The position numbers and the translations under genes are program-made. This document shows, piece after piece, positions 1 to 64,000 of a stretch of 64,000 nucleotides of DNA; position 1 is the stretch's first letter, and every line of letters starts with the position of its first letter. The notes beneath the pieces are model-generated. The model saw only the letters and a program-made list of their open reading frames with translations, was not told the origin of the DNA and did not search any database. Source of the stretch: Prorocentrum cordatum. Lineage: Eukaryota; Sar; Dinophyceae; Prorocentrales; Prorocentraceae. The stretch is taken from contig CAUYUJ010018627.1 in NCBI GenBank assembly GCA_963575745.1, positions 215,052 to 279,051 of the forward strand, written 5' to 3'.

Positions 1-167
1 GGAACATCAGAATGCAAGGGTACCCTTGGGAAGGTTACCACCGTGCAGGTTGACTGTACAAGGTCTCGGTCGGCACGATTTGGGCCTCGAGGGGCAAGCT
101 TGCTCGGAGGCTGTGGCCCTCGAGAAGGACTTCTCGGCCAGCGCACTGCCAGACGGAGGGAGGGTAC

Positions 168-9079: not shown

Positions 9080-9190
9080 CGCCCGAGTTATCCGGGGTAA
9101 CTCGGGTCCGTGGTAACTCGGGTTTGGATTCCCGAAAAAGGAACCCGAGTTACCCCTGACCCGAGTCACCCCTGATGATTCGGGGCTCTG
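9080..9190. repeat. Family G repeat, copy 1
   Basis: Contains nested short palindromes of the type CCCGAGTTA-TCC-GGGGTAACTCGGG and ends GATGATTCGGGGCTCTG. Two further copies stand head to tail at 15,906-16,018 and 16,019-16,130. Confidence 0.75.
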
Positions 9191-15819: not shown

Positions 15820-16260
15820 ACGAATGCAGAGGCTCCCCGACCAGGATCCGAGGAGCGGCCCGCGGACCAGACCCCCGCCGGAGCCCGAAGGGGTTCTTCA
15901 CTTGGGCGCCCGAGTTATCCGGGGTAACTCGGGTCCGGGGTAACTCGGGGTCGGACTCCCGAAAAAGGAACCCGAGTTATCCCTGACCCGAGTTACCCCT
16001 GATGATTCGGGGCTCTGGACTCCCGAGTTATCCGGGGTAACTCGGGTCCGGGATAACTCGGGTTCGGACTCCCGAAAAAGGAACCCGAGTTATCCCTGAC
16101 CCGAGTTACCCCTGATGATTCGGGGCTCTGATTCACTGGGGGGGGGGGGAAAGGTACCGATACAGAGGAGGCCAATCCACGAATGTAGAGGCTCCCCGAC
16201 CGGGATCTGAGGAGCGGCCCGCGGACCAGACTCCCGCCTGAGCCCGAAGTGCTTCTTCAC
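15820..16260. repeat. 85-base direct repeat flanking tandem family G copies
   Basis: The segment AGAGGCTCCCCGACC...TTCTTCACT occurs at 15,820-15,903 and again at 16,176-16,260. Between them are two head-to-tail copies of family G (15,906-16,018 and 16,019-16,130). Family G copies contain GGGTAACTCGGGTCC-type inverted words and end TTCGGGGCTCTG. The arrangement suggests local duplication of a block that included family G. Confidence 0.7.
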
Positions 16261-17865: not shown

Positions 17866-18000
17866 AGAGGCCAAGGGGGCCCCAAGACGCCGCCAAGGAG
17901 CCCCAAGAGACTCCCAGGAGGTCCCCAAGAGGCCCCCAAGAGGCTCTAAAGAGGGCTCCGGGGCCGGCGGAATGAGCGAAGCGATTAGATAAAAAACCTG
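17866..18000. repeat. Short CCAAGAGG mosaic block L2 with tail
   Basis: About 80 bases of CCCCAAGAGGC units followed by GGGCCGGCGGAATGAGCGAA, the same tail as the block ending at 4,620. Confidence 0.7.
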
Positions 18001-22689: not shown

Positions 22690-23740
22690 CAAAACGGCCT
22701 CCGCGAGAAAGCAACGAGCATTGGCTGTACTAAGGTTTTGGCCCCATGTTGGCCTCGTGAGGGGGGACCCTAATTGGGGGCCCCTTCTCCTGTGATCGAT
22801 CTCACCCAAGATGGCCCAAAGATGGCCCCCAAGGCTCCCAAGGGTGCCCCAAGAGGGCCCCAAGAGGTGGCCGGGAAGCCCCACGAGGCCCCCAGGATGC
22901 CCCCAAGAGGTCCCCAGGATGCCCCCAAGAGGCCCCCAAGAAACCCCCCAGGGGCCCCCAAGATGCTCCAAGATGCCCCGGCGAGAATGCCAAATCATTG
23001 ATTGTACCAAGGTTTTAGCCACATGTTGGCCTCCTAGGGGGGGAACCGATGAAGATGACTCCAAGAGCGCCTGGGAGAGCCCGAGATGACCTCCAAGATG
23101 GCTCAAGATATCCCAAGATGTCTCATAATGGCTCCCACGATGCTGCAAGATGCCCCAAGACCCCTCCAAGACGGCTCCAAGTGGCCAAAGAGCCCCCCCA
23201 GGAGTCCCCGAAGAGGCCAACACCTTAGGAAAACATGTTTTTGACTTTCTCGCCTTTTCGCTTCCGATGGCCATCCGAGGCCTCAAGATGGCTCCAAAAT
23301 GGCCCAAGAGGGCTCCAAGAGAGGCTCAAGAGAGCCCCAAAACGGCCCCAAGAGCGCTCCAAGAGCGCCCCAAAAGCGCCCCAAGAGGCGATGTTCTGGG
23401 CTCCCGAGGGGCAACGCCAACTAATGCTCGCTTCTTGTTTGATCGATGTCCTCCAAGATGGCCCCAAGAGCGCTCCCAAGGCTCCAAAGAGCGCTTCAAG
23501 AGGGCCCCAAGAGGCCCCAACAGGCGCCCAAGAGGCCTCCAGGATGCTCCCAAGAGACCCCCCAAAGGCCCCACGAAGCTCTCCGAGGCACCCAAGACGC
23601 TCCAAGGGGCCTCCACACGGGGACCCTTCCTCTATGTGCTGCCCACTTCCCTGATCGAGGCAATTCCTTTGGGCATCGTTTCTGGATGGGCTGGTGGGGT
23701 TACGCGAAACGTCTAGAATTCCGATACGTGTCAGGCTAAT
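22690..23740. repeat. Mosaic block L3 of CCAAGAGG-type units
   Basis: Two CCAAGAGG runs are joined by a conserved linker that occurs twice here (about 22,715 and 22,985: TACCAAGGTTTTAGCCACAT, then GTTGGCCTCCT) and once at 49,670. The tail GGATGGGCTGGTGGGGTTAC resembles the tail at 45,650. The same orientation is kept as in all other blocks of this kind. Confidence 0.75.
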
Positions 23741-41700: not shown

Positions 41701-43084
41701 CCAGCGGCCCGATGTTGTCGATCCCTTTGGCCTTGGTGGCTGTGATGGCGGGGAGCAGGCGGTCCAGCTGCTGCAGCTGGAGCGGGGCCAAGGGTTGCTG
41801 CCAGGCGCGGCCCATGACCATGTGGATGCCGTCGAGGATCTGGTCGGGGGTCACGCTGGGGTCGGCCCAGTGCTTTTCCCATTCGTCAGCTCGGTTGCTC
41901 ATGATCTGGTCAGGGTCCGCCACGGATCTCCCTTGCTGGATCTTCTCAACTGTCTCAGGTCTCGGATCCTTGACCATGTTGTGGAGGTGCCGCGGAGCTT
42001 CATTCCACATCTTGATTGCCCAGCTCTGGTAGGCCTTCCTCGACTTGGTGAGTGCCTGCCCGACGGCCCTCCCTTGGTACCTCTCGCTGGTCTCGATGAC
42101 GGGGATCACATCCTCGACGGGGATGTCCTGCAGCGTCCTCATCATGGCCTTCCAGTTTCTGAACTCCTCGCCGTCGTCCTTGTTGAACACCTCGTGGATC
42201 TGCATCTCCTCGGCCTTCTGCATGATCTCGACTATCTTGCCGTTGCAGCTGGCGGCCTCTATGATCCTGTCGGTGCGCCTGAGCATCTCGTAGCGCTTGA
42301 GGAGCGTCACCGCAATGTGCCACCACTCGAGGTGTGGGTCTCGGAGGTGCGCTCGCGCCAGCGTGGCCGAGGTCCTGACCCACTTGATGGCATATCCTCT
42401 TCCTCTGCCCATGTAGGCGTCCTGTTTGTCTGTGTCGATCTCGTGGTGCTGGAGGGTCGCAAGCTCCAGGGTCGTGATCCACCTCGCAAAATGGCTGTCG
42501 ATCTTCTGCTGGCCCTGTGGATCCCTCATCAGCAAGAAGTGGTACTTGCTCTGTTTGCATCTCGATGTTGCTGTCGGTGGGGCGGCTGGTCTCTGCCAGG
42601 CTGTCACTCCTGGGGTCGGTCCTCTGGCTTCAACTGCTACACTCGCTTCTTCCCATACTTGCACTGGGATGTTGAAGGCCGTGGTGGGTACAGCCTCCCT
42701 GGTGTCATCTTCTTCGTCGAGATCATCGTACATCTCGTCAAAGGCGGCCTGCAGGTGCTCGTGGAGCCTGGCGCGCCTCTCCTCCTTGGCCTTCTGAATG
42801 CCCTTCTGCCTCTTGCTGTTCGGGTCGGCCTGCTTCTTGGGCCGCGGGACCGTGGGGAGCTCGTGCGCGATGTCCAGCTTCCTGTGCCACCACCTCTGCT
42901 TGCCGTCCTTTATCGTGAGTTTCAGGCCTATGTGATCCTTCCAAGGGACCTCCTCGACCGCCTGCAGCTTCAGGTGGCCTGTCGTACCTTTAGAGACGAG
43001 GGCATAGTCGATGGCGCTGCCCGAGCCCCTGTTGCACGTGGCGGTGCAGTTCTCCACCAGCAGCCTCTCCGCGTTGAGCTTCAA
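38738..43084 (-). CDS. LINE (non-LTR retrotransposon) polyprotein: endonuclease tail, reverse transcriptase, RNase H
   Basis: The 1,448-codon frame encodes the enzyme that copies the element's RNA into DNA at a nicked target. Residues 22-56 (SAIDYALVSKG, then WKDHIGLKL) are the end of an apurinic-type endonuclease; the rest of it is missing because the frame starts at the edge of a GGA/CTC tract, without an ATG. The reverse transcriptase has LLLDLAKFYDS (about 572-582) and FVDD (666-669). A CxxC-H-C knuckle follows (CPRCGQ, then FHRVWVC; about 1,019-1,036). RNase H is complete: GDGSGG (D1110), RAELAAF (E1161), VTDHRP (D1181) and GNECADELAS. Two further cysteine pairs lie near the C-terminus (YCRKC, FCSMC). 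There is no internal stop or frameshift, so the copy is probably young though 5'-truncated. GGA-type tracts stand on both sides. Confidence 0.9.
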   Translation of the reverse strand: MKLNAERLLVENCTATCNRGSGSAIDYALVSKGTTGHLKLQAVEEVPWKDHIGLKLTIKDGKQRWWHRKLDIAHELPTVPRPKKQADPNSKRQKGIQKAKEERRARLHEHLQAAFDEMYDDLDEEDDTREAVPTTAFNIPVQVWEEASVAVEARGPTPGVTAWQRPAAPPTATSRCKQSKYHFLLMRDPQGQQKIDSHFARWITTLELATLQHHEIDTDKQDAYMGRGRGYAIKWVRTSATLARAHLRDPHLEWWHIAVTLLKRYEMLRRTDRIIEAASCNGKIVEIMQKAEEMQIHEVFNKDDGEEFRNWKAMMRTLQDIPVEDVIPVIETSERYQGRAVGQALTKSRKAYQSWAIKMWNEAPRHLHNMVKDPRPETVEKIQQGRSVADPDQIMSNRADEWEKHWADPSVTPDQILDGIHMVMGRAWQQPLAPLQLQQLDRLLPAITATKAKGIDNIGPLEVQRLPTEGRQGMIDLLNDIEEVGAWPRQMLATIGSVVPKEKGGGDRILGQLPFVTKTWSKLRGSITSEWSVNLSESWDTAMRGSSALRASILRATLDESAKEMGITTATLLLDLAKFYDSISVVKLAQHALEQGYPPIVLCLEVQMHLAPRLLKERQWVSREAQPWRSIQAGSPEGARLAKAFMGPILHRAQLTKQADIGLWTFVDDAVLRSQGTEANVEKQLIDNGAMLGECLKEAGLTVSPKTTVIASSPKLAIAIAKGLQQRGIPAKAEGNFTDLGVDCNAASMRTRRKGRQIMQKAARRAHAIRRMRRMARLKVVTKGLWTTGARAQGTYGHQVQGLPHYEILRLRRQAAQAAAGRGPGRCLTSTLAMLYGRGDPAKSIPREQLAAWLDQWFAHPELHARIAKAWQPSLRRLRLAGESRWRRVRGPISATVATLLDAGWDPVDHDFWVTDEDVGWRFPSPDQPSFAEAAADYVELLLDFERPIDRKLWKQAALHQGSSDIEGDSDMLMIRREMQQFQKRGDDDLWALDVAVVAAGQWTRQRRAEAGYDAPDACPRCGQAADSLFHRVWVCACNQGHPDFEKSDYLVPRATACHEAWPSYWLRGLPSVEATTPSFDLDLPPHRSEFGDFASVPRDPDGFLTVFGDGSGGEHSSDPRRRRVGSGVCALEALPAGGWTPSAGIVCSLGGTRQTVPRAELAAFAEALECTSGPLRYVTDHRPLQDGWNRGRHLSPSFSCSNADLWFRIGRAVRARGPDPVLIEWTPSHRESEDIRSSRDLWWAVGNECADELASRGASVAWSEFVTSVPHTDAVDAETFLIRRRARRALAEAIRADPWTENRPSAPRPVRIPRLELAMRASQHEWRRLGTKFYCRKCKVFVNRSRFFAAAPTVYANRAPPPGIAALNGRRVLGGQVLDESHALQYWGEFKLVFCSMCGLTATTDPQAPLQTACCTHPEGEAESGEDKERPSPLCEGPPQDCYRGQY

Positions 43085-49409: not shown

Positions 49410-49960
49410 CGGGCACGTTCCCCTACAGGCGAGTTTTGGAGGTCGCCGGCCCAACGGGCCAAAGGCGTGCTAAGAACTCCAGTAACCGTTTTTTGCAATT
49501 TTCTAGTTCGCCCGCGTGGGGCGGCCTCCATGGGGGCCCTCAAACGAAAGTACCCGGAAGGCAGTAGTGACCAAGAGGCCCCCAAGAGGCCCCCAGGATG
49601 CCCCCCAAGAGGCCTCCCAGAGGCACCAAATACGCTCCAAGATGCCTCGGCGAGAATGCCAAAATCATCGATGCTACTAAGGTTTTAGCCACATGTTGGC
49701 CTCCTGGGGGGGCACTGCTAAAGATGATTCCAAGAGCGCCCGGGAGAGCCCAAGATGACCTCGAAGATGGCTCAAGGTATCCCAAGATGCCTCAATATGG
49801 CTCCCACGATGCTCCAAGAGGCCGCAAGACCGCTCCAAGACGGCTCCACGTGGCCAAACAACTCCCCCAGGAGGCCCCGAAGAGGCCAACATCCTCCCAA
49901 AACCATCAAATTACCCTTTCTATACATGTGGCGATTATACCCAGGACCGCTCAACGCTGA
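49410..49960. repeat. Mosaic block L8 with leader, linker and CCAAGAGG units
   Basis: It starts with the same leader as the block at 3,690 (CGGCCCAACGGGCCAAAGGC, then TTTTCTAGTTCGC). CCAAGAGGCCCC units follow, then the linker TACTAAGGTTTTAGCCACAT, then more units and GAGGCCAACATCCTCCCAAA. Confidence 0.75.
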
Positions 49961-50034
49961 CTGGCATTCGGAAGGACCCGCCGTGCGCAGAAAGAGCACC
50001 CAGCAATGCTTTCAGAGGAGCGCAACAAGTCCCG

Positions 50035-51835
50035 TGGTGATCCGCGTATGACGTACCTCCGCTGGGCCTCTCAGGAGCCCTCGAAAGTGTGACAATTGCG
50101 CAGATCGCAAACCCCACAGGGGCGGCGAAGTACCGAAGTGATCCGCGTATGACGTACCTCCGCTGGGCCTCCCAGGAGCCCACGAAAGTAGCGACAATTG
50201 CGCAGATCGCAGCCCCCTACGGACAGCGAGGTCCCGTGGTGACCCGCGTATGACGTAGCTCCGCTGGGCCACCCAGGAACCCACGAAAAAGGCGACAATT
50301 GCGCAGATCGCAGCCCCCCAGGGGGGCGGCGAGGTCCCGTGGTGATAGGCGTATGACGTACCCCCGCTGGGCCCCCCAGGGACCCCCACGAAAAGTGGCG
50401 ACAATTGCGCAGGTCGCAGCCCCCCAAGGGCGGCGAGGTCCCGGAATCCGCGTATGACGTACCTCCGCTGGGCCTCCCAGGAACCCACGAAAAAGGCGAC
50501 AATTGCGCAGATCGCAGCCCCCCAGGGGGCGGCGACGTCCCGTGGTGATCCGCGTATGACGTACCTCCGCTGGGCCTCCCAGGAGCTCACGAAAGTGGCG
50601 ACACAGATCGCAGTGACTCGCGTATGACGTAGCCCCGCTGAGCCTCCCAGGAGCCAATGAAAGTGGCGACAATTGCGCATACCGCAGCCCCCCACAGGCG
50701 GCGAGGTCCCGTGGTGATCCGCGTGGGACCCACCTCCGCTGGGCCTCCCAGGAGCTTTCGAAAATGGGGACAGTTGCGCAAATCGCAAGCCCCCCAAAAG
50801 GGCGACGAGGTACCGAACTGATCCGCGTGGGACCCACCTCCGCCGGTGGGCCTCCCATGAGCCCGCGAAAGCGGCGACAATTGCGCAAACTGCAAACCCC
50901 ACAGGGGCGGCGAAATTCCGCGGTGATCCGCGTATGACGTACACCCGGTGGGCCCACGAACGCGGCGACATTATGCAAATCGCTGGGCCTCCCAGGAGCC
51001 GACGAAAGTGGCGACAATTGCGCAGATCGCAAGCCCCCCTGGGGGCGGCGAGGTACCGAGGTGGTCCGCGTGGGACCCACCCCCGCTGGGCCTCCCAAGA
51101 GCCCGCGAAAGTGGCGACATTTGCGCATATCGCAAGCCCCCCAAGGGGGCGGCGAGGTACCACTGCGATCCGCGTGGGACCCACCTCCGCTGGGCCTCCC
51201 AAGAGCCCACGAAACTGGCGACATTTGCGCAGATCGCAAGCCGCCCGAGGGGCGGCGAGGTACCGATGTGATCCGCGTGGGGCCCACCTCCGCTGGGCCT
51301 CCCAGGAGCCCACGAAGGTGGCGACTGTTGCGCGGAAGCCCCCAAGGGGCGGCGAAGTACCGTGGGGTCTGAATGAACCCACCTCCGCTGGGCCTCACGG
51401 GAGCCCACGAAAGTGGCGACAATTGCGCAGATCGCAAAACCCCCAGGGGGCGGCGAGGTACCAATATGATCCGCGTTGGACCTTCCAGGAGCCTTCGAGA
51501 ATGGGGACAGTTCGCAAATCGCAAACCCCCCAGAAGGCGGCGAGGTGCCGAGGTAACCCGCGTGGGGCCCACCGCCGCTGGGCCTCCCAGGAACCCACGA
51601 AAGCGGCGACATTTGCGCATATCGCAAGCCCCCCAAGGGGGCGGCGAGATACCGATGTGATCCGCGTGGGACCCACCGCCGCTGGGCCTCCCAGGAGCCC
51701 ACGAAAGTGGCGACATTTGCGCAGATCGCAAGCCCCCCAGGGGGCGGCGGGATACGGAACTGATCCGCGTGGGACCCACCTCCGCTGGGCCTCCCGGGAG
51801 CCAGCGAAAGTGGCGACATTCGCGCAGATAGTCGA
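50035..51835. repeat. Tandem array of about 19 units, period about 102 bp
   Basis: Each unit runs CCGCTGGGCCTCCCAGGAGC, CACGAAAGTGGCGACAATTG, CGCAGATCGCAAGCCCCCC and GGGCGGCGAGGTACC. Measured spacings are mostly 101-104 bases, with short units near 50,636, 50,982 and 51,475. Units left of about 50,700 mostly carry CGTATGACGTACC; those right of it mostly carry CGTGGGACCCACC. Because 102 is 34 codons and stops are rare, frames of 300-520 codons stay open on both strands; I do not take these as genes. Confidence 0.9.
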
Positions 51836-51839
51836 AAAC

Positions 51840-52030
51840 AAGCTGGTAAGCTTAGGTATGTGTTACGCTTTAAGCGTTGCCATATCCCAGGCTTTGGCTC
51901 ATATCGCATGAGCAAGAGAGCAAGACGAAGCATGGGATCTGGAGTAAAGGATAGGATGGGCATCGTCAATGGAAAAGGTATTTTCCGATCTCTGATGCAA
52001 ATCGTGCGCCTCGGTGAGGCACAATCACAT
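51840..52030. other. Boundary between tandem array and copia element
   Basis: Ordinary sequence. This is where the 3' untranslated part or LTR of the copia-like element should lie, but its partner LTR is outside the window, so I cannot define it. Confidence 0.4.
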
Positions 52031-52031
52031 A

Positions 52032-52785
52032 TTAGGCCGGGCCCGGCTTGAGCCAGGCACGGCAGCGGTACATGCTCGATTTACACCTCGCCTTAAACCT
52101 TCTCCGTTTAAAGTCGGAGGGGGAGGAGACGAGCAGGCACCGCACTTCTACATTATGCGGAAAAACAGTGCTAAGCAGCAGCGGCTGCCTACAAGGAAAG
52201 GGCGCGCGAGTAGCCTCGCTACCGGCGAGTTTCCTCGCTATTAGAGCGCACCTGCCCGCGGGTTTCCCGCTAGCTCGGGAGGCAGGGCCGTCCTGAGACG
52301 ACCTGCCCGCCCTATACGGTGCATGTTTCTTCAGCTCGTGCTTGAAGGATTGCTGGCCGGCCATTACTTGTAGGAGCAACGCGCGGTCAATACTACCTTT
52401 GGTATGACCATCGGCAGTCATATCCCGCGTGTCACACCATTGAACGCTTTCAACGATTCCGCGCTCCATCATCTGGCGGATCCAGCTAATGTGCCCAAGC
52501 AGAGTACATTCTGTGGGCTTCTTCAGATCTTTGCTAGACAAAGACTTGAAGACAGACTCGGCATCAATAGTCAGAGTGACTTTGATACATAGACCACCCA
52601 TTTCCAATATGTTCTTTAACTGTGTGGGGGTCAATGGTCCCGAGTGTAGCTCGTGGAGCGTTACAATGGTCGGGTAGCAGTCTTCCAAGTTGTGGGCTGC
52701 TGCCAGTGTTTCCGCAGAGTAGCTCGAACGCACCTGCAGTCGATGAGACTTGCAGTATGCGTCCACCAGGTGCACGACGGGTTTC
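52032..52785 (-). CDS. Copia RNase H segment
   Basis: This frame completes the RNase H begun at the end of the reverse transcriptase frame. It contains SYSAETLAAAHNLEDCYP (the catalytic E), TLTIDAESVFKSL (D) and DTRDMTADGHTKG, the copia-type C-terminal motif with the last D. The first catalytic D (LHSDSGYRR) lies in the preceding frame. The switch happens near 52,777-52,800, exactly where two small hairpins stand. After HAPYR at the domain end, the frame runs on through sequence with three hairpins (52,206-52,270) and is probably not functional there. Confidence 0.8.
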
Positions 52786-55618
52786 CCGCTTGCGTGTGGC
52801 CACGCCTCAGCAGGTTAGCCCCGCGGATACCATAGCCTTTGACTTCGTCGTCTTCATCTCCGTTGAGACGACGATAGCCAGAATCGCTATGCAGGTCGAC
52901 TTCTCCTGTTGGGGTCATAGCTTGATACACGATCTTCTTCGGACCTGCCTGTAGCTTTCTGGTAACCGCGTTTAGTCGTCGTACCTGGATGTTTGTCGGT
53001 TCCTGGATACGTTGTAGTGAGACAACATAGACCATCAGCCATACCTGCGTGATCAACGCATAGGCTAGAGCGCCACGAAGACTGACGAACATATCAGAAA
53101 TCGTCTTTGTCGCTTTGCTCTCAGGATCAGCTCCTGTGAGTTCTGGATGTGTGATAGGACGAAGCTGTTTGATGTATTCGTCCTGATCAAGAGTGACGCT
53201 CCCATCATCGGTCTTGTTATACCGAACGGCACAGTTTGTGTATGTGTGCTTGTTCAGTTTGCACTTCCCAAACGTATCTTCAACACACTTGACATACTTG
53301 TCAATAGCCTCTTCCTTCCCAGTCATATTGATGTCATCAACGTGCTTGGCTGTCAAGAGGTTTGAGCTCATCTCGAACTCTTCGTCGTATGAAGTAGGCT
53401 GTAGCCCAAAGCTCCTAGTGATGGACCTGAGCTTCAGCGAGAATGCCCTGGGAGCATCCTTCGTGCCCGTCCCCGGCTTCAGACACCGAAGACAATGCTT
53501 TGATTCGTCATATGACTCAAAGCCTGGCAGCGTGCGAAGGACAGCTGCTGACCCAGGTGGTAGTGTGAAGCACACCACACGCTCTTTCTCGCCCGTTGCC
53601 GCGGCGAGCTCGCCATAGGTCAGTCCCTTCAAGAAAGCCATGTTGATGTCCAGGGAAGCGATGATCCAAGCTTTGTTGCATGCAGCAGAACTTGCGAGCA
53701 GTCTCTGGCTTGACCTCCTTGCCGTGCCAGAGAAGGTTTCGACATCAAAGGCTTCGAGGTCCATGAAGCCACGGAGTACCAAGCGTAACCGGATCGTCCT
53801 TTCCATTTCGCCCTTTTCGTTCTTGACAAACTTCCATTTGTATACGTAGCGTGACGTCATGATGTTAGACGCTTTGCTCAAGTCAGTCATCTGGAAGCAT
53901 TTGTTGTCAAGCCAAGTCTTCAATTCTGTGTAAAGGGCTTTGGAAACTTTGACCGGATTTGCTTGGATGTCGGCCTTCGTGAGTAGATCGTCTTCCTTGA
54001 CGACCACGGCACGTTTGGAAGCAGCACTAACGTATACTCGCATAGTTGTGACGCTGCTGTCATCCAACAATCGGTGTTGCTGCTCGGACAGGACGACTTT
54101 GGACATGTCTGCTGTGAAGCAGAGCTCGATGTACTTCCCGTGCTCATCGGAGTCCAGATCATATTTACTGTCCGGATCCGTGGAGCATAAAGGAACGTAG
54201 TAAGAAGTGTCCATGTCGTATCCTGGCGGGTGACCCCGCTCCGGCAAGTGGCCTTGCACATCTTCACAGGTCGTAGAGACTAACACACACTGTGTGTCTG
54301 TCATGTATGTGGGAACTGTATGCATGACTTCCTCTGTGTCAGCTTCAAGGAGTGTTCTGTCATCCATCAGTTCAGCATACCACGACTTCAAGACAAAAGC
54401 ATCCAGATCTTCTTCTGTTTCCTCTATGATGGTCGGGAGCCGACCATCGTTATCCGTAGGAGGCTCCTCAGGAGCAGCTGCTGGAGGTGACTCGCTTGGT
54501 GGTGGACCATCAGCGAGTTCCTCAAACTTAGTGAGGTCTCGGTCAAATCCAGCAGACGACTTCCTGGATTTAAGACACTGGATGATGCGTGAGTGTGTAG
54601 ATCCTGTGATGTCATAGATGTTCAAGGCAGTGCCATCAGCTTCATAGTAATGAAAACCAGGGGTCACATCATTATCATAGTGCACTAGTGTACAGCTGTC
54701 TGCATAGGGTGCAGCAGGCAACTTCGTCAGGCTCTTGGCAAGTCGTACAGCAACAACGTTTTCAATACGAAAGTAGTTGCGTATGAGGTACTGAAGAGCC
54801 AAGTGCACCTTAGGCGAAAGTCGGCTCGCAGCAGTCATCTGCAGCCGGCCCTGTTTCGCTGGTAGATATCCGAAAGTCATGGCGGGTTTCCCCGCTGGCA
54901 GACCGGCAATAAAGGCCAATACTGTCCGAAGGGCCGTATTGTCCGATCCTATCTCGCGGACCATAAGTGCTTCGATGTACAGCGTGTGTCGTGTGTCAGG
55001 ATACTGTACTCGCACCTCGCGACTGCCGACCTTCACGATGACCTGGCCTCGGTCAGGTTCGTTGCGGATGACCGGGTATGGACCACTCCATCCACCCCAG
55101 TCGTCTTTCGTGGTGGTCGGGCGATGATAGTCCACGAGATCTCCCTCTTTGTAGTGAAATTCACCCGTAGCAGTAGTCTTCGTACGGAGAGCCCTGTTCG
55201 TCTTGGCAACCGCAGTGGCCTGCGTGATTGCCTCCAGACTAACCCTCCTGATTGTTTCCTCCCTTGAGTGATCTGATGATTCAGCGGACTGATCATGATC
55301 CAAGACAGGGAAATCGGGAAGCATAGCTGGTTGTCTGCCATACAGCGCATTGTACGGAGACACTTCATTGTAGAAGGTAAATGCGTTGCTGGCAAACAAG
55401 GCTTCATGTAAGAGACGAGTGAAATTGAGAGGAATATTTAATCTATTCAATTCTTCTCCCATCACGTGTAAGAGGTGTCGCAGGATGCCGTTCCTAGCTT
55501 CGATAGTTGTGGCGTGTTGGCCACGCGCTCGGATACGAAGCTCTGTTCCCTTAGCCTTAAGGATGGCCTTTGCTGTATCATTATTCAGTGCTCCTTCCCC
55601 ATCGGAGTATAAGATTTA
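52661..55618 (-). CDS. Copia integrase C-terminus and reverse transcriptase
   Basis: The frame opens before its first ATG (55,465): from about 55,617 it reads ILYSDGEGALNNDTAKAIL and TTIEARNGILRH, which hold the second D and the E of the integrase catalytic triad. Residues counted from that ATG: 108-168 are a chromatin-binding-like integrase tail (GDLVDYHRP, WSGPYPVI); 350-500 are of unknown role; 535-900 are reverse transcriptase, with RLVLRGFMD, SLDINMAFLKG (D606) and AKHVDDINMTG (HVDD 708-711). The RNase H start LHSDSGYRRLNG follows. The final 55 or so residues are out of frame. Proteins of this type copy the element's RNA and insert the DNA. Confidence 0.85.
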
Positions 55619-57798
55619 GCAGGGCCATGTTGCATCCAAGTCGTATGATAGGCATCGAGAACAGTATGCATGGCTTTATCAGGAATCTCTGTGCCAGCTG
55701 CCCAGCGAATACAACGGTCGATGATGTGAAAAACAATATGTTCCTGTTTGTAAAAGAAAAGATCACATTCGACTTCCTCGTTGAAACGTCCTGGCAGTGA
55801 CACAGAAGGCATCACCGTGTTGCCTGGTTTGTCCCAGGCTCGACATTCTCTACACGAGTCACAAATGCCTTTGATCAGACTCAAACGGGTTTCACCCAGA
55901 CCAACCTTGGTTAGAATCATCCGCATTTTTGGCTCCTTGGCATGAAACCATCTCAGGTGGAGTTTGCGGAGTTCTCGCTGCACTACAGCTGGGTCGAAGC
56001 TGCGCAGGTTTTGGAGGCTGAGCTGAACGTCGAAGCGAGTCCAATCAGGGAGCCTTGGCCTTGGCCTCGGCTCTGCTTGAGGCTGCGGCGGTGGTGGTGG
56101 ATCTCCTCCCTCCATGCGTCCGCGCCTTGCTGCAACTTGTGGCAGTCTACGGTGATCGTCAGAGCTGCCAGCGCCAGTGTTGCCACCATTAGCCCCTTCG
56201 GCTCTGGTGATGTCATGGCTGCTGGCGCCTGCGGTTGGATCGCCCTCACCAGGCCGTGGCGGCCTAGGCGCGCGTATGCGCGCTCTCGCGGCCGGCGCCG
56301 CTTTTGCGGCTGGCGCCGCTTCTGCGGCTGGAGCCGCTTCCGCGGCTGGCGCCGCAGGAGCGGCTTGCCCCGCCGGGCGCGGCTGGCCAAAGTTATCTGG
56401 CAGCTTCCATTTTTCGGCGAATCTGCATTGGCCAGATATCTTGGTGTGGTGAGGATTGCTCTTCTGATATTCCTTCTTACAGCTTGGACAGTCCCAGTAA
56501 TACGGTTCAACATCATACCACCGACACATCTTCGGATCCCTGCTGTGCTTTGGTGATTGCTTGTAGTTGTTGTCCACACAGCCAGGGCACCCAAGACCGC
56601 CAGGTGGTGGTCGCCAGATTTCTCCGTTTGGGTGTCTCCGGATTGTTGGGTCGTCCAAGTCGTAGCCAGCACTGTTTGTTACGAACGCATAGCTGCGTTC
56701 ACGATTCGCGAATGGATCGCGACCGTAAGCAAACAGATCTTTGGCGATTTGCACCGCATCAACGATCAGTGACTGCATTCTGTAGGTATACTGCGCCGCC
56801 CTTGCTAGTTCTTTGTTACAAGCATTGGCGTGCACATGATTACCTGGACAACGCTTGCCTCTGAAAGGTGCCAACAACTCTTCTTTGTTTGCCATCATCT
56901 GTGTTGGCTTGCGGATGTATTGTCCAAATGAATCTTTGAGACCAGTCGTGCACTGATCAATAATCGTTTGGCAAGTGACCTTGCGTTGTGCCAGTTCCTT
57001 CCATGGCTGGATCTCATCCACCCACGTGCCCATTGGTTGTTCCCTGAGAAAGAAACGTCTTAGGTCGTCTTGTAATAGAGCGACTGTTCCACAGAACGTG
57101 ATGTGAGGCAGGTCCTCTTTGTGGTGTTTAAGCCACGTATCATGATTGACCTGTGCATTGAAATAGGAAGGAAGTCCAGTAGTTCTGCAGCTTGGCTGCA
57201 GAATCGTGATCTTGACAAAGCAAGTCTTGAGGTAGTGGAGGACTGCTCTTTGTACTTCCGAGTTTCCAAGGTCAACCATAGATATCTTGTCAAGGTTCCC
57301 GCCTGACGAGAGTCCCCTCTTGAAGGCTAATATGGATATACCACCCTTGCCCCCACATAATTCAAGCATGTCCACTTGATTGTTTCTGCCGTAGCATAAT
57401 GACTGGACCATCGAGAAGACATCAGCATGTGAGTCAGCGGGTTGCCCCGCCGGTAACATCATGAAGATGTCCTCTGATTCGCTGTCCGAGTCCGAGTCGT
57501 CAAGAGGAACGTCGTTGAAATATGTGGAGCAGTCAAGCCCTTTGAGGTCCTCTCCACAGTCGTCGTTACCGTCTTCCACTTTCTTCGGGACTTTCTTCGG
57601 TTTGATGCCGGCCTCTTTGTCAGCTTTCTGCTTTTCTTTCTGTTTTATCCTGGCATCAGTGGGCAACGCAGTTTCCGCGGAGAGATCCGCTGCGGAGGAA
57701 TCCGCTGTTAAGTCAGGAAATGGCGGAATTTCAGGAAAGGTTGTTGGTGGGTCGCGTTTGGCAACGCTCAATCGAAGGGGGAGGAGATCGATCGTCAT
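55585..57798 (-). CDS. Copia polyprotein segment: methyltransferase-like domain, zinc-finger-like region, integrase N-terminus
   Basis: Residues 143-210 carry VDMLELCGGKGGIS and ITILQPSCRTTG. These resemble motif I (F/ELFAGxGG) and motif IV (PxC) of cytosine-5 methyltransferases, but the ENV motif is not visible, so activity is doubtful. Residues 280-350 have DQCTTGLKDSFGQYI and ANKEELLAPFRGKRC. Cysteine pairs (GCPGC at 403-407, CPSC at 437-440) suggest zinc binding. An Ala/Pro-rich linker (about 475-510) is built from four hairpins in an 18-base period. The C-terminal part has the integrase HHCC motif (HLRWFH, CDSCREC) and the first catalytic D in EVECDLFFYKQ. The frame then runs into a stop after GPAKSYT, one base out of register with the next frame. 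Confidence 0.75.
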   Translation of the reverse strand: MTIDLLPLRLSVAKRDPPTTFPEIPPFPDLTADSSAADLSAETALPTDARIKQKEKQKADKEAGIKPKKVPKKVEDGNDDCGEDLKGLDCSTYFNDVPLDDSDSDSESEDIFMMLPAGQPADSHADVFSMVQSLCYGRNNQVDMLELCGGKGGISILAFKRGLSSGGNLDKISMVDLGNSEVQRAVLHYLKTCFVKITILQPSCRTTGLPSYFNAQVNHDTWLKHHKEDLPHITFCGTVALLQDDLRRFFLREQPMGTWVDEIQPWKELAQRKVTCQTIIDQCTTGLKDSFGQYIRKPTQMMANKEELLAPFRGKRCPGNHVHANACNKELARAAQYTYRMQSLIVDAVQIAKDLFAYGRDPFANRERSYAFVTNSAGYDLDDPTIRRHPNGEIWRPPPGGLGCPGCVDNNYKQSPKHSRDPKMCRWYDVEPYYWDCPSCKKEYQKSNPHHTKISGQCRFAEKWKLPDNFGQPRPAGQAAPAAPAAEAAPAAEAAPAAKAAPAARARIRAPRPPRPGEGDPTAGASSHDITRAEGANGGNTGAGSSDDHRRLPQVAARRGRMEGGDPPPPPQPQAEPRPRPRLPDWTRFDVQLSLQNLRSFDPAVVQRELRKLHLRWFHAKEPKMRMILTKVGLGETRLSLIKGICDSCRECRAWDKPGNTVMPSVSLPGRFNEEVECDLFFYKQEHIVFHIIDRCIRWAAGTEIPDKAMHTVLDAYHTTWMQHGPAKSYTPMGKEH

Positions 57799-58816
57799 CG
57801 ACGATCGTCACACGCTTTGGGCGTGGCCTTCGCGACTCACCGTCGCCATGAAGAACTGGAGCCGGAGGCTCCCAGTATAGCCGAGTACTGATGTTTGTAA
57901 CCCCATCAGGTAATGGAGCTACATAATTGTACCCAGTTGGCTGATCCTGAATTCTAATATCTTGAACGATCTTATTCGTGTCCAGGTCGGTCGTGACTCT
58001 ACGAACAACATGGTCCCATTGAGGGCCCTTTTGTGGACATTGGACGTAGTGTCTGACCTTTTTGTCAACGCGAGTACACACGCTGAGGTGCACCGCACTC
58101 CGCTCATTCCTGATCATGTTGGCTTTATCGAGTTGATCAAGGAAGCGTGCAATAATGATAGCCAAAGTTTTATACCGAAACTCGGCACGTTGCTGATCTT
58201 GGCCATACCAATCCAAATCATGCTCCTTGTGTGAGCCACAAGTACATTTCCATAAGTTTATCGGTATATGAGGACAAGATGTAGCAACTTGTATATAAGA
58301 ACCACTGGGATATTTACTGGATCGGTCAAACTTGATACCGAAATGACAGAGTCTCATTCGTATAATGCTTAGCTTCAAATCTTCGATAACATCTTTGATC
58401 GGACCCTGTTTCCAGAAATACCCGGGTGGCCCCAGGATAACTATCTGCATTCTCAGAGCACGCGCTTTGATCAGGAGATTTTGTATACGTTGATAATGTG
58501 GTCCCGCCCTCTTTCCTGGAGTACGAACGTACCAATCAGAGGGTGTGGCCACCCACAACATATTGTAGTCTCCTGCCAACAAATTTCCCAAATACTGTGT
58601 TCCAGTTGAAGTCATTACCTCATTATGGGTAATCCGGTCGCATATATATCCACGGGTTCGGAGTTCAGCGCAAGCTGTGCGAATATCTTCGATGACAAGA
58701 CATTTTGAATGATATTTTTCCTCTCGGGCCTCAGCGCGGCCAACGTATGTCGCGAGGAGGCCGGTATTCGGCTTCTCTTCGCAAGCGAGCGCCGCCGGCG
58801 CGCCCGCCTGCCCCCG
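57731..58816 (-). CDS. Copia polyprotein segment, domain of unknown function
   Basis: An ATG lies at 58,615, but the frame is open upstream to about 58,816 with protein-like sequence (NTGLLATYVGRAEAREE, KCLVIEDIRTACAELRT), so the ATG is not a real start. The body has GDYNMLWVATPSDWYVRT, MQIVILGPPGYFWKQ and RMRLCHFGIKFD, then KYPSGSYIQVATSC and LWKCTCGSHKEHDL. I associate this kind of domain with the polyproteins of copia elements from dinoflagellates, from memory, but do not know its role. The CTCGSH cluster may bind metal. It is joined to the following methyltransferase-like frame by a frame change near 57,785. Confidence 0.65.
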   Translation of the reverse strand, partial: RGQAGAPAALACEEKPNTGLLATYVGRAEAREEKYHSKCLVIEDIRTACAELRTRGYICDRITHNEVMTSTGTQYLGNLLAGDYNMLWVATPSDWYVRTPGKRAGPHYQRIQNLLIKARALRMQIVILGPPGYFWKQGPIKDVIEDLKLSIIRMRLCHFGIKFDRSSKYPSGSYIQVATSCPHIPINLWKCTCGSHKEHDLDWYGQDQQRAEFRYKTLAIIIARFLDQLDKANMIRNERSAVHLSVCTRVDKKVRHYVQCPQKGPQWDHVVRRVTTDLDTNKIVQDIRIQDQPTGYNYVAPLPDGVTNISTRLYWEPPAPVLHGDGESRRPRPKRVTIVDDDRSPPPSIERCQTRPTNNLS

Positions 58817-61260
58817 TCAGCGGCGGTCGTGTGACCACGTTGCCGTCTGACTCGGGGGCATGCTGTTAGCGGATGGCTCCGCAGGAGTCGCTGGTGCGGC
58901 TACGCTCACGATCTCCACGCGGGTTGGCCCCGCAGAGTCCGACGAGCCTCCGCCCGTGTAGCTTGGTGGTGGTGGCGGTGTCGCGGGTGGCCCCGCTTGG
59001 TTCTCAGGCGTCCATTTATTCACCGCCTCCTGGACTGCCCAGAATATCTTAGACTTCAGGGCATCCTTCATATGTGGCCAGGTCCCCTCGGGACACTGTT
59101 GGCCCTCCCACCAGCTGTTCAGCGTCCTGTCCACGATCAAACGGGTCGTGTCTTCCAGGAGCTGCTTGTCGAGATACGGCTCGACAATGTACGTATCAGT
59201 CGTGGCGGTCATGGACTGTCCCGTCGCGGGTTGCCCCGCTGTGGTCTCGGCGGGTGGCCCCGCACTTACTCCGGCGGGTGGCCCCGCACTTACTCCGGCG
59301 GGTGGCCCCGCACTGACGGGGTCCTCTTCATTCTCCGTCTCGGTGTAGCCATCTCGACTGCTGCGGATTGTGAAGGTGTTCGTGACCGTCTGGCTTTTAG
59401 CCCCGTCATACAAACCGCAGGGAATCGCGAGATGTCCCGAGGGAGTTTTCTTCGCCCTCAGGACCTTGGCACCCCTTCCCAGCTTCAGGGTGTAGTCACC
59501 GCTGGGGAAGATAACCTTCTGGTAGCCTGGCTTCAGCACGATGATCGTGTCACGTGCTTCCATGGCTCCTAGGCCCCAGATGGCCGGGAGATTGGCACCC
59601 GAGCCTTCTGCGATGTTGGAGGCATACTCCTCGATACGGGGGCTTGCCTCATTGGCGTATTGCACCCCGATCTTGAAGTTGCCCATCTTCCGACATATCG
59701 CAGCACCCTCACCGACACCGTTGATGTAGAGGGTCTTGCTCAGGGTGCATATGGCAGGTCTGTGATTGTACCTGGCCATAATCTCCTGGAAGGTTCGCGC
59801 CGTATTGGCTCCAATGATGTTCACGTTGGAGCCAATGTCTAGCATGAACGAGATGCAGGGCATACCGTCTTCGTCAGGAAAGAATGTCCCATTTCGCGCT
59901 GCCAGAGCCATTGTACCATGGTCATCGGTGTGGTACGTAATCTGTGAACCGAGTGTGCCTTTCAACAGGCGTTGTTCAAGCACCCATTGACTCATGGTTA
60001 ACTCGGTGCACCACATCTGCTCATATTGGCGGCGCTCCTCCACGGTAATTGGTTCCTGTTCGAGAACCCAATAATTCGCAGAGAGTGTGGACATCCATTC
60101 ACCTCCTGGCGGCAGCGTGTCCGTGTCGTCACGTGCATAGGTCAGCCCCTCTGTATCGATCATGAATGTGGTGTGGAACTGGGCTGCCTCCGCGCTCTCA
60201 GCGCTTGCCCGGCTCCTAGCGCTGACCGGGCTTGCCACACGTGAGGTCCTGGATGATCCAGTTGGCCTTCGAGTCCCGCCTCCGCTCCTGCCACTCCGCC
60301 TGATGTTGGCCTCCATTGCCCTCAGGAAACCTGGATTTGGAGGCCCATTTGCGGGTGGCCCCGCTTTGGCGGCGGGAGCCGCTTCAGCGGGTGGCCCCGC
60401 AGCTGGGGGCTCCTGTGCTCGAAGCGTAGGCAGGATTGGCATCTGGATGCCTTGCTCTGGCGCTGGCCAGGGGTATGCCTGTGCAGCTGGGGCACGTGCG
60501 GATGGCTCCGCCGATTGTGCGGCTCGAGCCTCTAGTGCCTCCACTGCTTCCCGTAGCCGACGCATTTCCCGGGCATCTGCCACGTACCTCTCCTGCTGGC
60601 GCGCTTGTTCTGACTCAGCGTCGCGCTGTCCAGCATATGGGAAATGTGCTATAACTATGCCCGGCCCACGACATACAGCGCAGGGGGCCTCGTTCGGCGC
60701 ACCTGGCCGCTGATTGCGGACGTGCTGCTGTGCAACACGATCCCAGCATATATCGTGGAAGAAGTGCCCACACGCCAGTCTCCACACTATGGTGCCCATC
60801 TCGTAGGTGTCCATACAGATTGGGCACTGTGTGAAGTTGTAGTCTGAAATAACTGGAGCAGGCACGTCTGGGCGAGTCCGAGCTTGGCGCTCGAAAGTGG
60901 TTTCGCCCTCCCGATATGGCGTCGGTGGCGGTCGTCTATCTGTCCGTTCAGCGGGTGGCCCCGCGTCTGCGGGTGTCCCCGCTTGGGTCTCACGCTCGAT
61001 CCTTCTCTGGATCGCGCGTTGTTGGCGCAGCCTGGCGTTGTCCCGAGCCTGCTGCCTAGATGCCAGTATCGCTTGCTGCGTGTTGTGCACGTCGCGGATG
61101 TAGTCTGGCATGCTGCCCATAGCGGCTGGCACCGCGAGACCAGCTGGCTGAACTACGGTCTCGGGGTCCGTCGGCGTGGGCATGTAGGCGTAGTGCGGCA
61201 TAGACTGCGCATCGACCGCTCGTGTAAACTGCAAACGAAACATCTCATTGGCAGATTCCG
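58817..61260 (-). CDS. Copia polyprotein segment: RING-H2 finger and retropepsin-like protease
   Basis: Counted from the ATG at 61,243: residues 50-90 are a charged helix. Residues 140-191 form a RING-H2 pattern, CPIC then 14 residues, CGHFFHDIC, then CAVC, matching C-x2-C-x14-C-x-H-x2-H-x2-C...C-x2-C. RING-H2 domains usually recruit ubiquitin-conjugating enzymes (established). A helix at about 225-245 and AGPPA-type linkers follow. Residues 462-575 look like a retropepsin: SFMLDIGSNVNIIG holds the catalytic D469 in a DIGS variant of DSG, and WGLGAMEARD the usual second half. C-terminal AGPPAGVS repeats are hairpins. The frame before the ATG is open for a few codons, so translation probably comes from the upstream frame. 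Confidence 0.8.
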
Positions 61261-64000
61261 AGTGTATTCGTTCGCAGGTGGCCCCGCAATCATAGGAGTG
61301 TTATTCATCTGCGCGTAGTACTCCGGGTACATCGGCGCGTCCATGGCCTGTGCCTCTGCTGGTCCATGATTGTCCCATCCATATATTGGGTGTGATGCTA
61401 TTCCTGGAATAAACACCTGTCGATATGGATTCGTGGGATCAGCATTTGGAGCATCTTCAGAAGTCCAGCTCCAGAGAGGCCGAAAGTCGCCATGATTCGT
61501 AACATCTATGTTGCGGTTCCGCAACAGGCTGGGCACTCTATCAGCTTGTTGCTGCAGAAAGGTAGCCTGTGCTCTTAAGTTGGCTGCCCGACGTTCATAG
61601 TCTGACCCTTGCTGTCCGTCAGCGGGTGGCCCCGCGTGTGCGGGTGGCTCCGCAGGCGTTCGCTCGGCGGGTGTCCCCGCAGCCACTCCTCCTTCACTAC
61701 CCCTCGGAGTGCCAAAGGGAGTGGTCGCCTGGAGTGCTGCTGCGAGCGCCGGATTCCCGCGAATCGCCTGGAGTCTTTGCCACAAGCTGTTCTCGCTCGT
61801 TTCAGACGGCGGAGTCCGAAACGGCGAGCCACCATCTGAACCGCCCATAGGGACAAACCTCGCACCTCCAGCTTGCTGCGGAGGGCGTTGTGGTTGTGGT
61901 CCTAGGACGCCTGGTGGCCCAGCAGGAGTGCGCAGGTTCCTCTGCTGTGCGTCTTGGATACCTGTATGCACTGCCCACGGGTCAGCACGATATAGCTGAT
62001 CGGTCAGTCCAGAGACGTCGGCTGGTGTCAAATAGCTGTTGAGGGCCTGGACCCATGTCTGCTGGTCCGGCCTCCAAGGAGATGCTACCGTTGCTACTGG
62101 TGTGACCACTTGTTGCCATGAACCGTCCGAGGTGTCTACCGCGGGTGTCCCCGCACCTGCGGGTGGCCCCGCTTCAGGCATGACCTCGTCCTCCTGGGCA
62201 TTCATCATGAGGACTGTCTGTGTGTCGTACGGTCGTGGAGCAACATCTTGCTCGGTCATGATCAAATTGAATGGGCGACCGTCCGTCTTAGTCCAGCCCT
62301 TTAGGTACATGGCGTGATCTTCCATTACACCCAGAGTTCTGTCACACATTTTAAGTGGCAGGTAGTCATCGGTGCGAATCCTGTCCGCGGGTTGGCCCCG
62401 CCTCCGCGACTTGTCATAAGCCAGCGGATTGCTCCAGGCTTCGCCGACCCGATATTTCGCAATGCTCACAATCTGGAGGATATGATCGGGCGGTATACGT
62501 CCGTCGTGGCCCCGTGTCATGACTATGTCATTTGCTGATCTCCATAGGGAGAAGCCACTGGACAGCATCTTGTTGATGCTGCAGAATATGAGCACCTCCG
62601 AGTCAGGACGGATGCCCGATTGAATCCTCGGGTCGCCCGGGAGGTAGGGGCAGCCGTGCACAAATTGGCGCCCCCCCTTCCTTTTAGGGTTGTCCTGTGC
62701 GAGGCATGAAAGGCCATTAGCAAGGATGTCCTTGACATACTCCCACTGTGTCCCGTGGATGAAATATACTGGGTCGTCTGGTTCTTTCATCCATGTTGTG
62801 ATCGGCTTATAAAGCGACTCGGGACAGTGGATGCCTGGACTGCTGTGGCCGTTCGTGGCTCTGATGAAGTACTGTGGCCTGCGTGCCTTTGGTCGAAACC
62901 TGGGAGGCAGCAGCATGCTGTCCTCAACGCACTTCATCTGGAGCCTGCCCTTCTGCATGCCGTGATGGTCAATCATCTCACAGCAGTTTAGCAGCACCCA
63001 ATACACGTATGACGTGTGGGGCCTGCCCTTGATCAGCACCTCGTGCATTTCACGATAGCCTTTCCACTGATCATTTTCAGTCCAGTTTGTCAGCAGATCG
63101 TCAACAACAACCCAGCCATCGTATGGATCGAAAGTGCTGATCTTTTCGAAGTGTCGGCTGAATCCGTCCTTCCAATATGGACTATGGCGTAGGGCTGTAG
63201 AGAACCATATTGACACCTTGGTCATTTGCCCTTCGCGCGGCAAAGTCGGATCCATGCCGAACCTCTCCATGACCTTCAGGAGCTCTGCTTTATGCTGCGC
63301 AACGCGTAGTGGCGGCCTGTCTCGCAACATATTTCCCACGGTTTGTTGTTCACGTTCCCAGTCGTTGCGGCACTCGAAGTTACGACGATCAGGGCAATTA
63401 ATGACCTCGTATCGGTCCGTATCGTCTCGAGTGACTCGTGGGTTTATGGTGCGCTTCGGGCCTTTGCCTTCAATGCCTTGCCAGTATTCGATGGCTCCCA
63501 GAGGGATGTTCCTAAGAACAGACATTACTGGCTGCCCGCGTGCGGGTGGCCCCGCTAATGCAGCTGGCGGCGCTTTAACGGGTGGCCCAGCAGAGCCTGC
63601 GGCTGACGAGGCAGCTCCAGCGGATGACTCCGCGCCAGGGTTCGGGTGACCTTGGTCAGCAACTGCATCATCGGTTAGTTTCTGTCGGTCGCCAACTTCT
63701 TTGAGGACTCTGAAGCGTTCTTCTCTTGAGAGAGTGCCTTCTGCGGGTGCCCCCGCTGCTGCAGCTGGCGCCGCTTTAGCGGGTGGCCCCGCAGAGCCCT
63801 TGTCCTCCTTAGCCTTGGCGGCCGCTTCTGCCCGCACCGACCTCATCCCAGCTTCGGGCTTCGGCTGTGCTTTCATTCGTGCCGAACCTGGTCGTGGTGC
63901 AAGGCGCGGCTGATGCAGAGTTGGAGTCCAGTCACCTCGGAAGGCTGCCTTAGGCTGATTGCGAGCTTCATCCTTGACATCGCCTTGGGTCGCCGGTGGC
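61153..64000 (-). CDS. Copia polyprotein segment with Tpt1/KptA-like RNA 2'-phosphotransferase domain
   Basis: The frame is open to the window edge, so the first ATG seen (63,876) need not be the start. Counted from it, residues 222-472 match the Tpt1/KptA fold. They include STALRHSPYW (R230, H231), DGWVVVDDLL, YFIRATNGHSSPG (R339, H344), YFIHGTQWEYVKDILANGL (H374), GGRQFVHGCPY (R403, H407) and SGFSLWRSANDIVMTRGHDG. Tpt1 enzymes remove a 2'-phosphate from spliced RNA using NAD, with an Arg-His-Arg-Arg active site (established); all four positions are filled here. A 60-residue insert separates the first and second blocks. Flanks are Ala/Pro-rich with hairpin-coded AGPPA words. Residues 640-800 are low complexity. 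The end overlaps the RING frame in another register. Confidence 0.75.
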   Translation of the reverse strand, partial: PPATQGDVKDEARNQPKAAFRGDWTPTLHQPRLAPRPGSARMKAQPKPEAGMRSVRAEAAAKAKEDKGSAGPPAKAAPAAAAGAPAEGTLSREERFRVLKEVGDRQKLTDDAVADQGHPNPGAESSAGAASSAAGSAGPPVKAPPAALAGPPARGQPVMSVLRNIPLGAIEYWQGIEGKGPKRTINPRVTRDDTDRYEVINCPDRRNFECRNDWEREQQTVGNMLRDRPPLRVAQHKAELLKVMERFGMDPTLPREGQMTKVSIWFSTALRHSPYWKDGFSRHFEKISTFDPYDGWVVVDDLLTNWTENDQWKGYREMHEVLIKGRPHTSYVYWVLLNCCEMIDHHGMQKGRLQMKCVEDSMLLPPRFRPKARRPQYFIRATNGHSSPGIHCPESLYKPITTWMKEPDDPVYFIHGTQWEYVKDILANGLSCLAQDNPKRKGGRQFVHGCPYLPGDPRIQSGIRPDSEVLIFCSINKMLSSGFSLWRSANDIVMTRGHDGRIPPDHILQIVSIAKYRVGEAWSNPLAYDKSRRRGQPADRIRTDDYLPLKMCDRTLGVMEDHAMYLKGWTKTDGRPFNLIMTEQDVAPRPYDTQTVLMMNAQEDEVMPEAGPPAGAGTPAVDTSDGSWQQVVTPVATVASPWRPDQQTWVQALNSYLTPADVSGLTDQLYRADPWAVHTGIQDAQQRNLRTPAGPPGVLGPQPQRPPQQAGGARFVPMGGSDGGSPFRTPPSETSENSLWQRLQAIRGNPALAAALQATTPFGTPRGSEGGVAAGTPAERTPAEPPAHAGPPADGQQGSDYERRAANLRAQATFLQQQADRVPSLLRNRNIDVTNHGDFRPLWSWTSEDAPNADPTNPYRQVFIPGIASHPIYGWDNHGPAEAQAMDAPMYPEYYAQMNNTPMIAGPPANEYTRNLPMRCFVCSLHERSMRSLCRTTPTCPRRRTPRP

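Follow-up and report, generated by a model that had tools for sequence, protein, structure and literature searches.

Dozens of GNNA-loop hairpins in the coding sequence of a Prorocentrum cordatum Ty1/copia-type retroelement: a candidate repeated site on the element RNA

What keeps one short hairpin recurring through the protein-coding sequence of a retroelement? The question is raised by a 64,000-nt stretch of the dinoflagellate Prorocentrum cordatum (contig CAUYUJ010018627.1, positions 215,052 to 279,051; hereafter, the window). At 52001–63999 its minus strand carries an element that, judged by its sequence, is a Ty1/copia-type retroelement: six overlapping open reading frames (ORFs) contain RVT_2, RING and Tpt1 domains, and the assignment follows from a match to the RVT_2 reverse transcriptase (PF07727, E 1.8e-11) in the ORF at 52661–55615 (minus strand), for which 40 matching proteins, chiefly metagenome-derived, were found. 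The 5′ end of the element extends past the end of the window. A preliminary description of this DNA had reported at least 32 micro-hairpins in the copia coding sequence; words of the form GCGNN-(3..5)-N'N'CGC occur 58 times in the window, 41 of them within 52206–63792 and 17 in the other 52 kb.

Could base composition or codon choice produce such a density? The G+C content of the window runs from 51 to 66% in 2-kb steps, and the available part of the P. cordatum genome report gives a genome mean of 59.7% (PMC10666404). The six ORFs hold 43 words (overlapping regions being counted twice) against a mean of 4.0 and a maximum of 10 in 200 synonymous shuffles that kept both protein and codon usage, so the codon-preserving control that had been proposed does not reach an equal frequency. 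Codon-order and dinucleotide shuffles of the same ORFs yield 1.1 and 0.9 words, respectively.

The shape of the repeated unit emerged from an unbiased scan for perfect stems with a loop of 4 nt, in which one loop class stood out on the sense strand of the element. Tetranucleotides beginning with G and ending with A sit on a stem of 5 bp or longer in 34 of 825 cases (4.1%), compared to 0–0.67% for the 15 other classes of loop ends, and among the 40 G..A loops with stems of at least 4 bp, stem length is exactly 5 bp in 32. The 34 loops read GCCA (20), GTCA (3), GACA (3), GCAA (2), GCTA (2), GAAA (2), GGCA (1) and GGAA (1). Most are thus GNCA (27/34) or, more broadly, GNYA (29/34), and with a purine at loop position 3 in just five, they do not form a GNRA class. 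That the loops vary had been noticed before, albeit as TGGC, TGTC and TTTC; on the minus strand, to which the element belongs, they are, for example, GCCA, GACA, GAAA, GTCA and GCAA, all of the type G-N-N-A. Where GCG words have a 4-nt loop, both free positions pair in 34 of 43. The core GCGGGGNCACCCGC is found in sense at 16 places and its reverse complement at none; the wider class comprises 28 paired GCGNNGNNANNCGC words (G..A loops) as opposed to three paired GCGNNTNNCNNCGC words (T..C loops). These figures point to a directional stem-loop, not to a symmetric palindrome. As read from these counts, the unit is a predicted stem of usually exactly 5 bp—GCG plus two exchangeable pairs—closing a GNNA tetraloop on the sense strand. 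Loops of this class can take GNRA-like or other compact folds, according to the accessible portion of one report (PMC5311481), and were among the most readily closing loops in a chemical ligation study, as far as its available text goes (PMC11773311).

Defined in this way, hairpins with a 4-nt GNNA loop are in excess in five of the six ORF segments taken singly, each time equalled in none of 500 shuffles; in the shortest segment, the excess is equalled in 1 of 500 once 5-nt loops are added. The segment 57809–58816 shows no such excess, its one hairpin being reached by 59 of 500 shuffles. GNNA hairpins on stems other than GCG are modestly enriched (6 versus 1.7, equalled in 1 of 200 shuffles), and individual ones among them may be chance. 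Hairpins with T..C loops are mildly raised, too (4 versus 1.0, equalled in 6 of 200 synonymous shuffles). Across both strands of the other 52 kb, no word within four mismatches of the consensus combines the family's pairing with its loop ends; three words lie within two mismatches, and eight perfect 4-nt GNNA hairpins with other stems match the chance expectation. The same window also harbors a LINE-type reverse transcriptase ORF (38738–43084, minus strand; RVT_1; 4347 nt, 1448 aa), in which no member of the hairpin family is found. Together, the synonymous shuffles, the rest of the window and the LINE ORF rule out chance or GC-richness as the cause.

Is it the pairing, then, that is maintained? 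Of 32 GCGNNGNNANNCGC words, 28 are fully paired, and re-dealing their 3′ arms 20,000 times gives a mean of 13.3 and a maximum of 21. For covariation, we took the 38 words within three mismatches of the consensus, minus two shifted readings of 5-nt-loop copies; the resulting 36 words (21 distinct) were chosen by consensus distance, independently of pairing. Four of the five pairs have changed on both sides in this set, 96.2% of cells pair versus 82.6% after shuffling, and the covariation score is 0.398 versus 0.130, although these shuffles, like those of the 3′ arms, ignore kinship among the copies and the figures are not probabilities. The stem pairs do, consequently, change together as originally claimed. 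Shifting the structure by one to three columns lowers the paired cells to 32–52%. When the inner part alone serves as anchor (GGGNNACC), all three outer pairs are present in 19 of 26 element words, as opposed to 2 of 77 GG-NNNN-CC element words with other loops and none of 36 GGGNNACC words elsewhere on both strands. Of the 29 words no more than two mismatches away from the consensus, 24 pair throughout, two contain a G-U pair, and three are broken.

Since the hairpins lie in coding sequence, silent sites offer a comparison between RNA and protein. In the trimmed ORF segments, where GCG, GGG and CCC account for 27%, 23% and 18% of their codon families, 18 of 20 AGxPA peptides are encoded as GCG GGG NNA CCC GCN; those at 58807 and 54907 use other codons. 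The silent base immediately outside these 18 hairpins is T in five, A in five, G in three and C in five. An additional AGPPA at 61274–61287, in the overlapping end of a longer ORF and outside the count of 20, uses CCT and forms a G-U pair; it was tallied as belonging to another frame, yet the longer ORF reads it in frame 0. The hairpin at 52792–52805, in turn, lies in frame 2 of an ORF matched by relatives. Over the 33 frame-0 members, the silent third positions within the unit show two, one, one and two changes, as against 10, six, four and 10 at the amino-acid-changing positions 5, 7, 8 and 10. The most changed positions are the loop middle and the exchangeable pair, both of which alter the amino acid, and the base just outside the unit is free (A 11, T 10, G 6, C 6). 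Single-change variants cover four of six possible types in the loop middle versus two of 36 elsewhere (Fisher p 0.0018). On this evidence, the pattern is the opposite of the trace expected from protein selection, and pairing is indeed better conserved than the protein, as had been proposed. Silent positions that are nearly fixed inside the unit and free just outside it speak strongly against a peptide-level cause and, together with the orientation bias and the covariation, against a palindrome that inserts at will.

Where do the hairpins reside? All lie on the minus strand and, unless stated otherwise, derive from the stem-loop scan. The commonest form, GCGGG-GCCA-CCCGC, is found at 63779–63792, 63542–63555, 62159–62172, 61622–61635, 60951–60964, 60387–60400, 60351–60364 and 58983–58996. 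The same stem closes GACA at 62141–62154, 61667–61680 and 60969–60982, GGCA at 63743–63756, GCAA at 57437–57450, and GAAA at 54882–54895. Exchanged pairs are seen in GCGGA-GTCA-TCCGC (63620–63633), GCGGA-GCCA-TCCGC (60498–60511 and 58869–58882), GCGTT-GCCA-AACGC (57754–57767), GCGTG-GCCA-CACGC (52792–52805), and in GCGAG-GAAA-CTCGC together with GCGAG-GCTA-CTCGC (52206–52238). A 5-nt loop is present in GCGGG-GCCAA-CCCGC at 62387–62401 and 58919–58933 (word count and stem scan) and in GCGTG-GCCAA-CACGC at 55512–55526, within a conserved pol stretch (stem scan and alignment). As for other stems, CGCAG-GCCA-CTGCG at 55211–55224 likewise falls into a conserved pol stretch (alignment), and GGGTG-GCCA-CACCC (58541–58554), GCAAG-GTCA-CTTGC (56971–56984) and ACGCA-GCTA-TGCGT (56685–56698) may be chance. 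Three neighboring pairs of perfect hairpins are spaced exactly 18 nt apart, one of which, at 54226–54257 in pol, joins two different stems (GCAAG-GCCA-CTTGC and GCGGG-GTCA-CCCGC) in frame 2; this spacing hints at paired binding. Finally, there are two arrays. At 59226–59311, stem-loop and repeat scans find four hairpins at 24-nt spacing (loops GCCA, GCCA, GCCA and GCAA) that are partly tandem duplicates; at 56288–56373, stem, repeat and consensus scans and alignment find a GCGGC-type array of AAPAA repeats at 18-nt spacing, with partly non-GNNA loops and an incompletely paired first word. Owing to such duplicates, 24 of the 28 perfect GCG-type GNNA hairpins have non-redundant flanks. Since nearly all copies share one frame and some stem from tandem duplication, the placement of the hairpins is shaped by duplication and by what the protein tolerates.

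How did individual sites arise? The comparison with relatives rests on protein sequences: the best 8000 candidates were scored per search, matches to the window were used at E ≤1e-10 and identity >30%, and 41 proteins were scanned for AGxPA. Among these, the peptide is present in one protein, P0009 (85% identity across half of the query); more distant relatives of the pol ORF contain no AGxPA-type peptides. At 54882–54895, substitution appears to have created the hairpin in situ, because 12 of 18 aligned relatives are gap-free over 16 columns there. At 55512–55526, nine of 10 relatives have proline and the tenth lysine, where the window has an arginine codon whose bases pair. The window's alanine at 55211–55224 faces eight serines, five alanines and one glycine in 14 aligned relatives, and because these are split, the change has no clear direction. 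The AAPAA array faces a gap in one relative (P0004) and other residues in a second (P0005). For the Gag-side ORF, the comparison draws on P0042, with identity at 157 of the 205 columns aligned. Three of the window's AGxPA sites recur in this relative (AGTPA opposite AGAPA in one case); the window's AGPPV is matched there by AGPPA, further AGxPA peptides are present, and the AESSA hairpin site is missing by substitution (AESSEE). Applied to proteins, the proposed test of whether hairpin positions differ between copies thus gives three common sites and one that P0042 lacks. P0042 is filed under a Myxococcales metagenome-assembled genome and is probably a mis-binned algal contig. Protein and pattern scans of viral contigs and a search of prokaryotic genome contigs revealed no relatives at the DNA level. 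Three P. cordatum gene models (P0041, P0043 and P0044) hold pieces of the element that are 98–100% identical; in each, the piece is flanked by unrelated sequences, which suggests exonisation or gene-model artefacts.

What might the hairpins be for? An RNA hairpin bound by a protein would be expected to leave behind near-fixed loop ends with a freer middle, exchangeable inner pairs, a usual stem length and a prevailing orientation. On balance, we consider it somewhat more likely than not that the element RNA bears a repeated, cis-acting, multivalent protein-bound site, with Gag as the most likely partner. More tentatively, and with rather less than even confidence, one may envisage a dispersed multivalent hairpin code—5 bp plus a GNCA-type loop, at ~30 sites—that is read by Gag and overrides, in gag and pol alike, the freedom of silent sites and part of the conservation of amino acids. 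We infer that a protein would bind the hairpin as RNA, at many sites per molecule, and sites distributed along the full-length RNA would lend themselves most naturally to packaging by Gag. In such a scenario, the 14-nt stem-loops (mostly with a GNCA loop), which are dispersed over gag and pol and most concentrated in Ala/Pro-rich linkers, would serve as cis-acting sites through which the element's own Gag or particle protein, as the most likely user, selects and condenses the genome RNA via many contacts, the role proposed for dispersed packaging signals in some RNA viruses; a host RNA-binding protein would be the next candidate binder. Some new sites would originate from substitutions in place, others from short tandem duplications in tolerant linkers.

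Several observations weigh against a protein-bound RNA site. The pattern of a CCHC zinc knuckle was not found in the element's ORFs, and Rfam returned no family at gathering score for the hairpins, so a known RNA family was set aside. In the trimmed segments, 33 of 36 members are in frame 0, which a site acting only as RNA would not need. Six of the 34 paired GCG words with 4-nt loops have non-GNNA loops. The GCGGG form (GG/CC) prevails with 19 of 32 words, and shared descent inflates such counts, the shuffles leaving kinship uncorrected. When folded in context, the hairpins reach a predicted pairing (mean 0.48) on a par with that of the element's remaining 4-nt-loop hairpins (0.47), although above that of the same sites in antisense (0.31); neighboring stems of like sequence might cross-pair, which would explain neutral folding in context. 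Lastly, for Ty1, the available part of a published account states that packaging needs the 5′ 380 nt, structured with kissing loops, rather than dispersed sites (PMC5454406).

Alternatively, the hairpins might be copies of a minute selfish palindrome that inserts itself into further sites of the element, and possibly of host genes, and whose pairing persists because copying needs it. The preliminary description had raised this idea of a tiny palindromic element spreading inside genes alongside that of a required RNA structure; the latter is consistent with loop ends that are fixed and an orientation that is nearly one-way, and the former now appears less supported. As to the uses it named for such a structure, packaging is plausible, and nothing in the data points to a block on siRNA, at which no test was aimed. 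The dominance of a single stem would suit a spreading sequence, as would the array that faces a gap in P0004 and the merely weak bias in the flanks of the 24 non-redundant copies (A/T before the unit in 19, a purine at the second base after it in 21). Conversely, orientation is one-sided in the core and wider class alike, the other 52 kb of the window contain no member, and the site at 54882–54895 is gap-free in most relatives. A mobile micro-palindrome would be expected to insert in both orientations, and the element's hairpins do not show this, even if copying by an RNA route during reverse transcription could preserve orientation. All in all, we regard such a palindrome as unlikely. Slightly more doubtful still is a host structured RNA signal, for instance in translation or decay control, that is present in many P. 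cordatum transcripts and was acquired by the element in many copies. Its loop and stem rule would be the same as for any protein-bound RNA site, but the LINE ORF in the window is devoid of the hairpins and, as a weak argument given that one frame only is visible, the gene models P0041, P0043 and P0044 lack an AGxPA peptide.

Two further explanations invoke neither mobility nor a host signal. Template switching between the arms, which is described for RNA genes in the available portion of one study (PMC8794818), would rewrite one arm from the other and thereby yield perfect stems with double changes in the absence of selection. By itself, however, it leaves the loop ends, the orientation bias, the common GCG/CGC and the usual 5-bp length unexplained, and we judge it improbable as the cause, while it may act in addition. 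Selection on the AGxPA linker peptide, with the hairpin as a by-product of recent codon copying, could draw on the shared frame, on a composition as rich in alanine and proline as linkers are, and on the tandem duplicates. Yet members exist in other frames, synonymous shuffles fail to reproduce the words, and silent sites are near-fixed within the 14 nt while the next silent base ranges over all four letters. The silent-site comparison led us to set this cause aside: as far as the sequence tells, it is largely contradicted and very improbable.

If the element RNA does carry protein-bound sites, the closest working model would be the dispersed packaging signals of single-stranded RNA viruses of the MS2 type, a resemblance in how they work rather than a shared membership. 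Both comprise many scattered sense-strand stem-loops with a common loop motif, which in MS2, going by the accessible text of one report, is (x)xYA on a stem with a bulged A (PMC6281560); here, most loops are GNYA. Unlike in MS2, the stems are continuous over 5 bp without a bulged A and uniform in sequence, they belong to a copia-type element, and they are known from sequence alone. Like Ty1, the element is a member of the copia superfamily whose RNA must be selected for particles; unlike the 5′ region of Ty1, it has dozens of like hairpins. With Rickettsia palindromic elements and other small intragenic palindromes, it shares palindromic units within protein-coding genes, those of Rickettsia being larger, mobile and present in many genes. 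Dinoflagellate introner elements—inverted-repeat units reported also from P. cordatum introns in the available parts of two papers (PMC10666404, PMC7789003)—sit in introns and have repeats at both ends, unlike the exonic 14-mers with a loop rule described here. No paper among the matches listed, in which subscription literature is thinly covered, described hairpins of this kind, be it from retrotransposons or from the coding sequences of dinoflagellates.

To our knowledge, the selection of retroelement RNA for particles is little studied outside Ty1 and retroviruses. A confirmed site would mean that RNA structure has shaped coding sequence against the protein, and would offer a way into the biology of retroelements in dinoflagellates, whose genomes are very large. 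While dispersed packaging signals proposed for RNA viruses are short and degenerate, according to the available text of one account (PMC6475782), the motif of this element is uniform and conspicuous to the eye, recurs dozens of times, and could be tested with a single short RNA.

The remaining features of the element concern its ORFs, all on the minus strand. The Gag-side ORF (61153–63999) carries the hairpins in Ala/Pro-rich linkers and encodes a nearly full-length domain resembling the RNA 2′-phosphotransferase Tpt1/KptA (62461–63120; PF01885, profile positions 28–177 of 177, E 3.1e-16), which is matched by three solved Tpt1 sequences; we know of no other such domain within the Gag-side ORF of a copia element. 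The ORF at 58817–61300, the richest of the six in GNNA hairpins, contains a RING finger (60668–60829), encoded by the copia element itself, and a stretch with LDIGSN that we take to be protease-like. It is followed by an ORF with a sub-threshold match to DUF5956 as its sole hit (57731–58816), an ORF partly common to relatives that features CxxC motifs and the AAPAA array (55585–57807), the pol ORF with the RVT_2 reverse transcriptase (52661–55615), and a C-terminal pol ORF in a different frame (52032–52814) recognized by protein alignments. No ORF of the window has a Pfam match to an integrase; the relatives P0023 and P0037 are listed with PF00665. With its frames in several phases, this copy may therefore be partly decayed or spliced.

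Other repeats populate the window. Just downstream of the copia element, tandem arrays with units of ~101–103 bp occupy 50029–51829. A distinct palindromic repeat, made of 16-bp units in inverted pairs (for example, TCCGGGGTAACTCGGG and ACCCGAGTTACCCCTG), is located at 9091–9175 and 15909–16130, and a short tandem repeat of the CCCAAGAGG type recurs at 4093–4398, 17871–17944, 22805–22979, 23279–23611 and 49571–49624.

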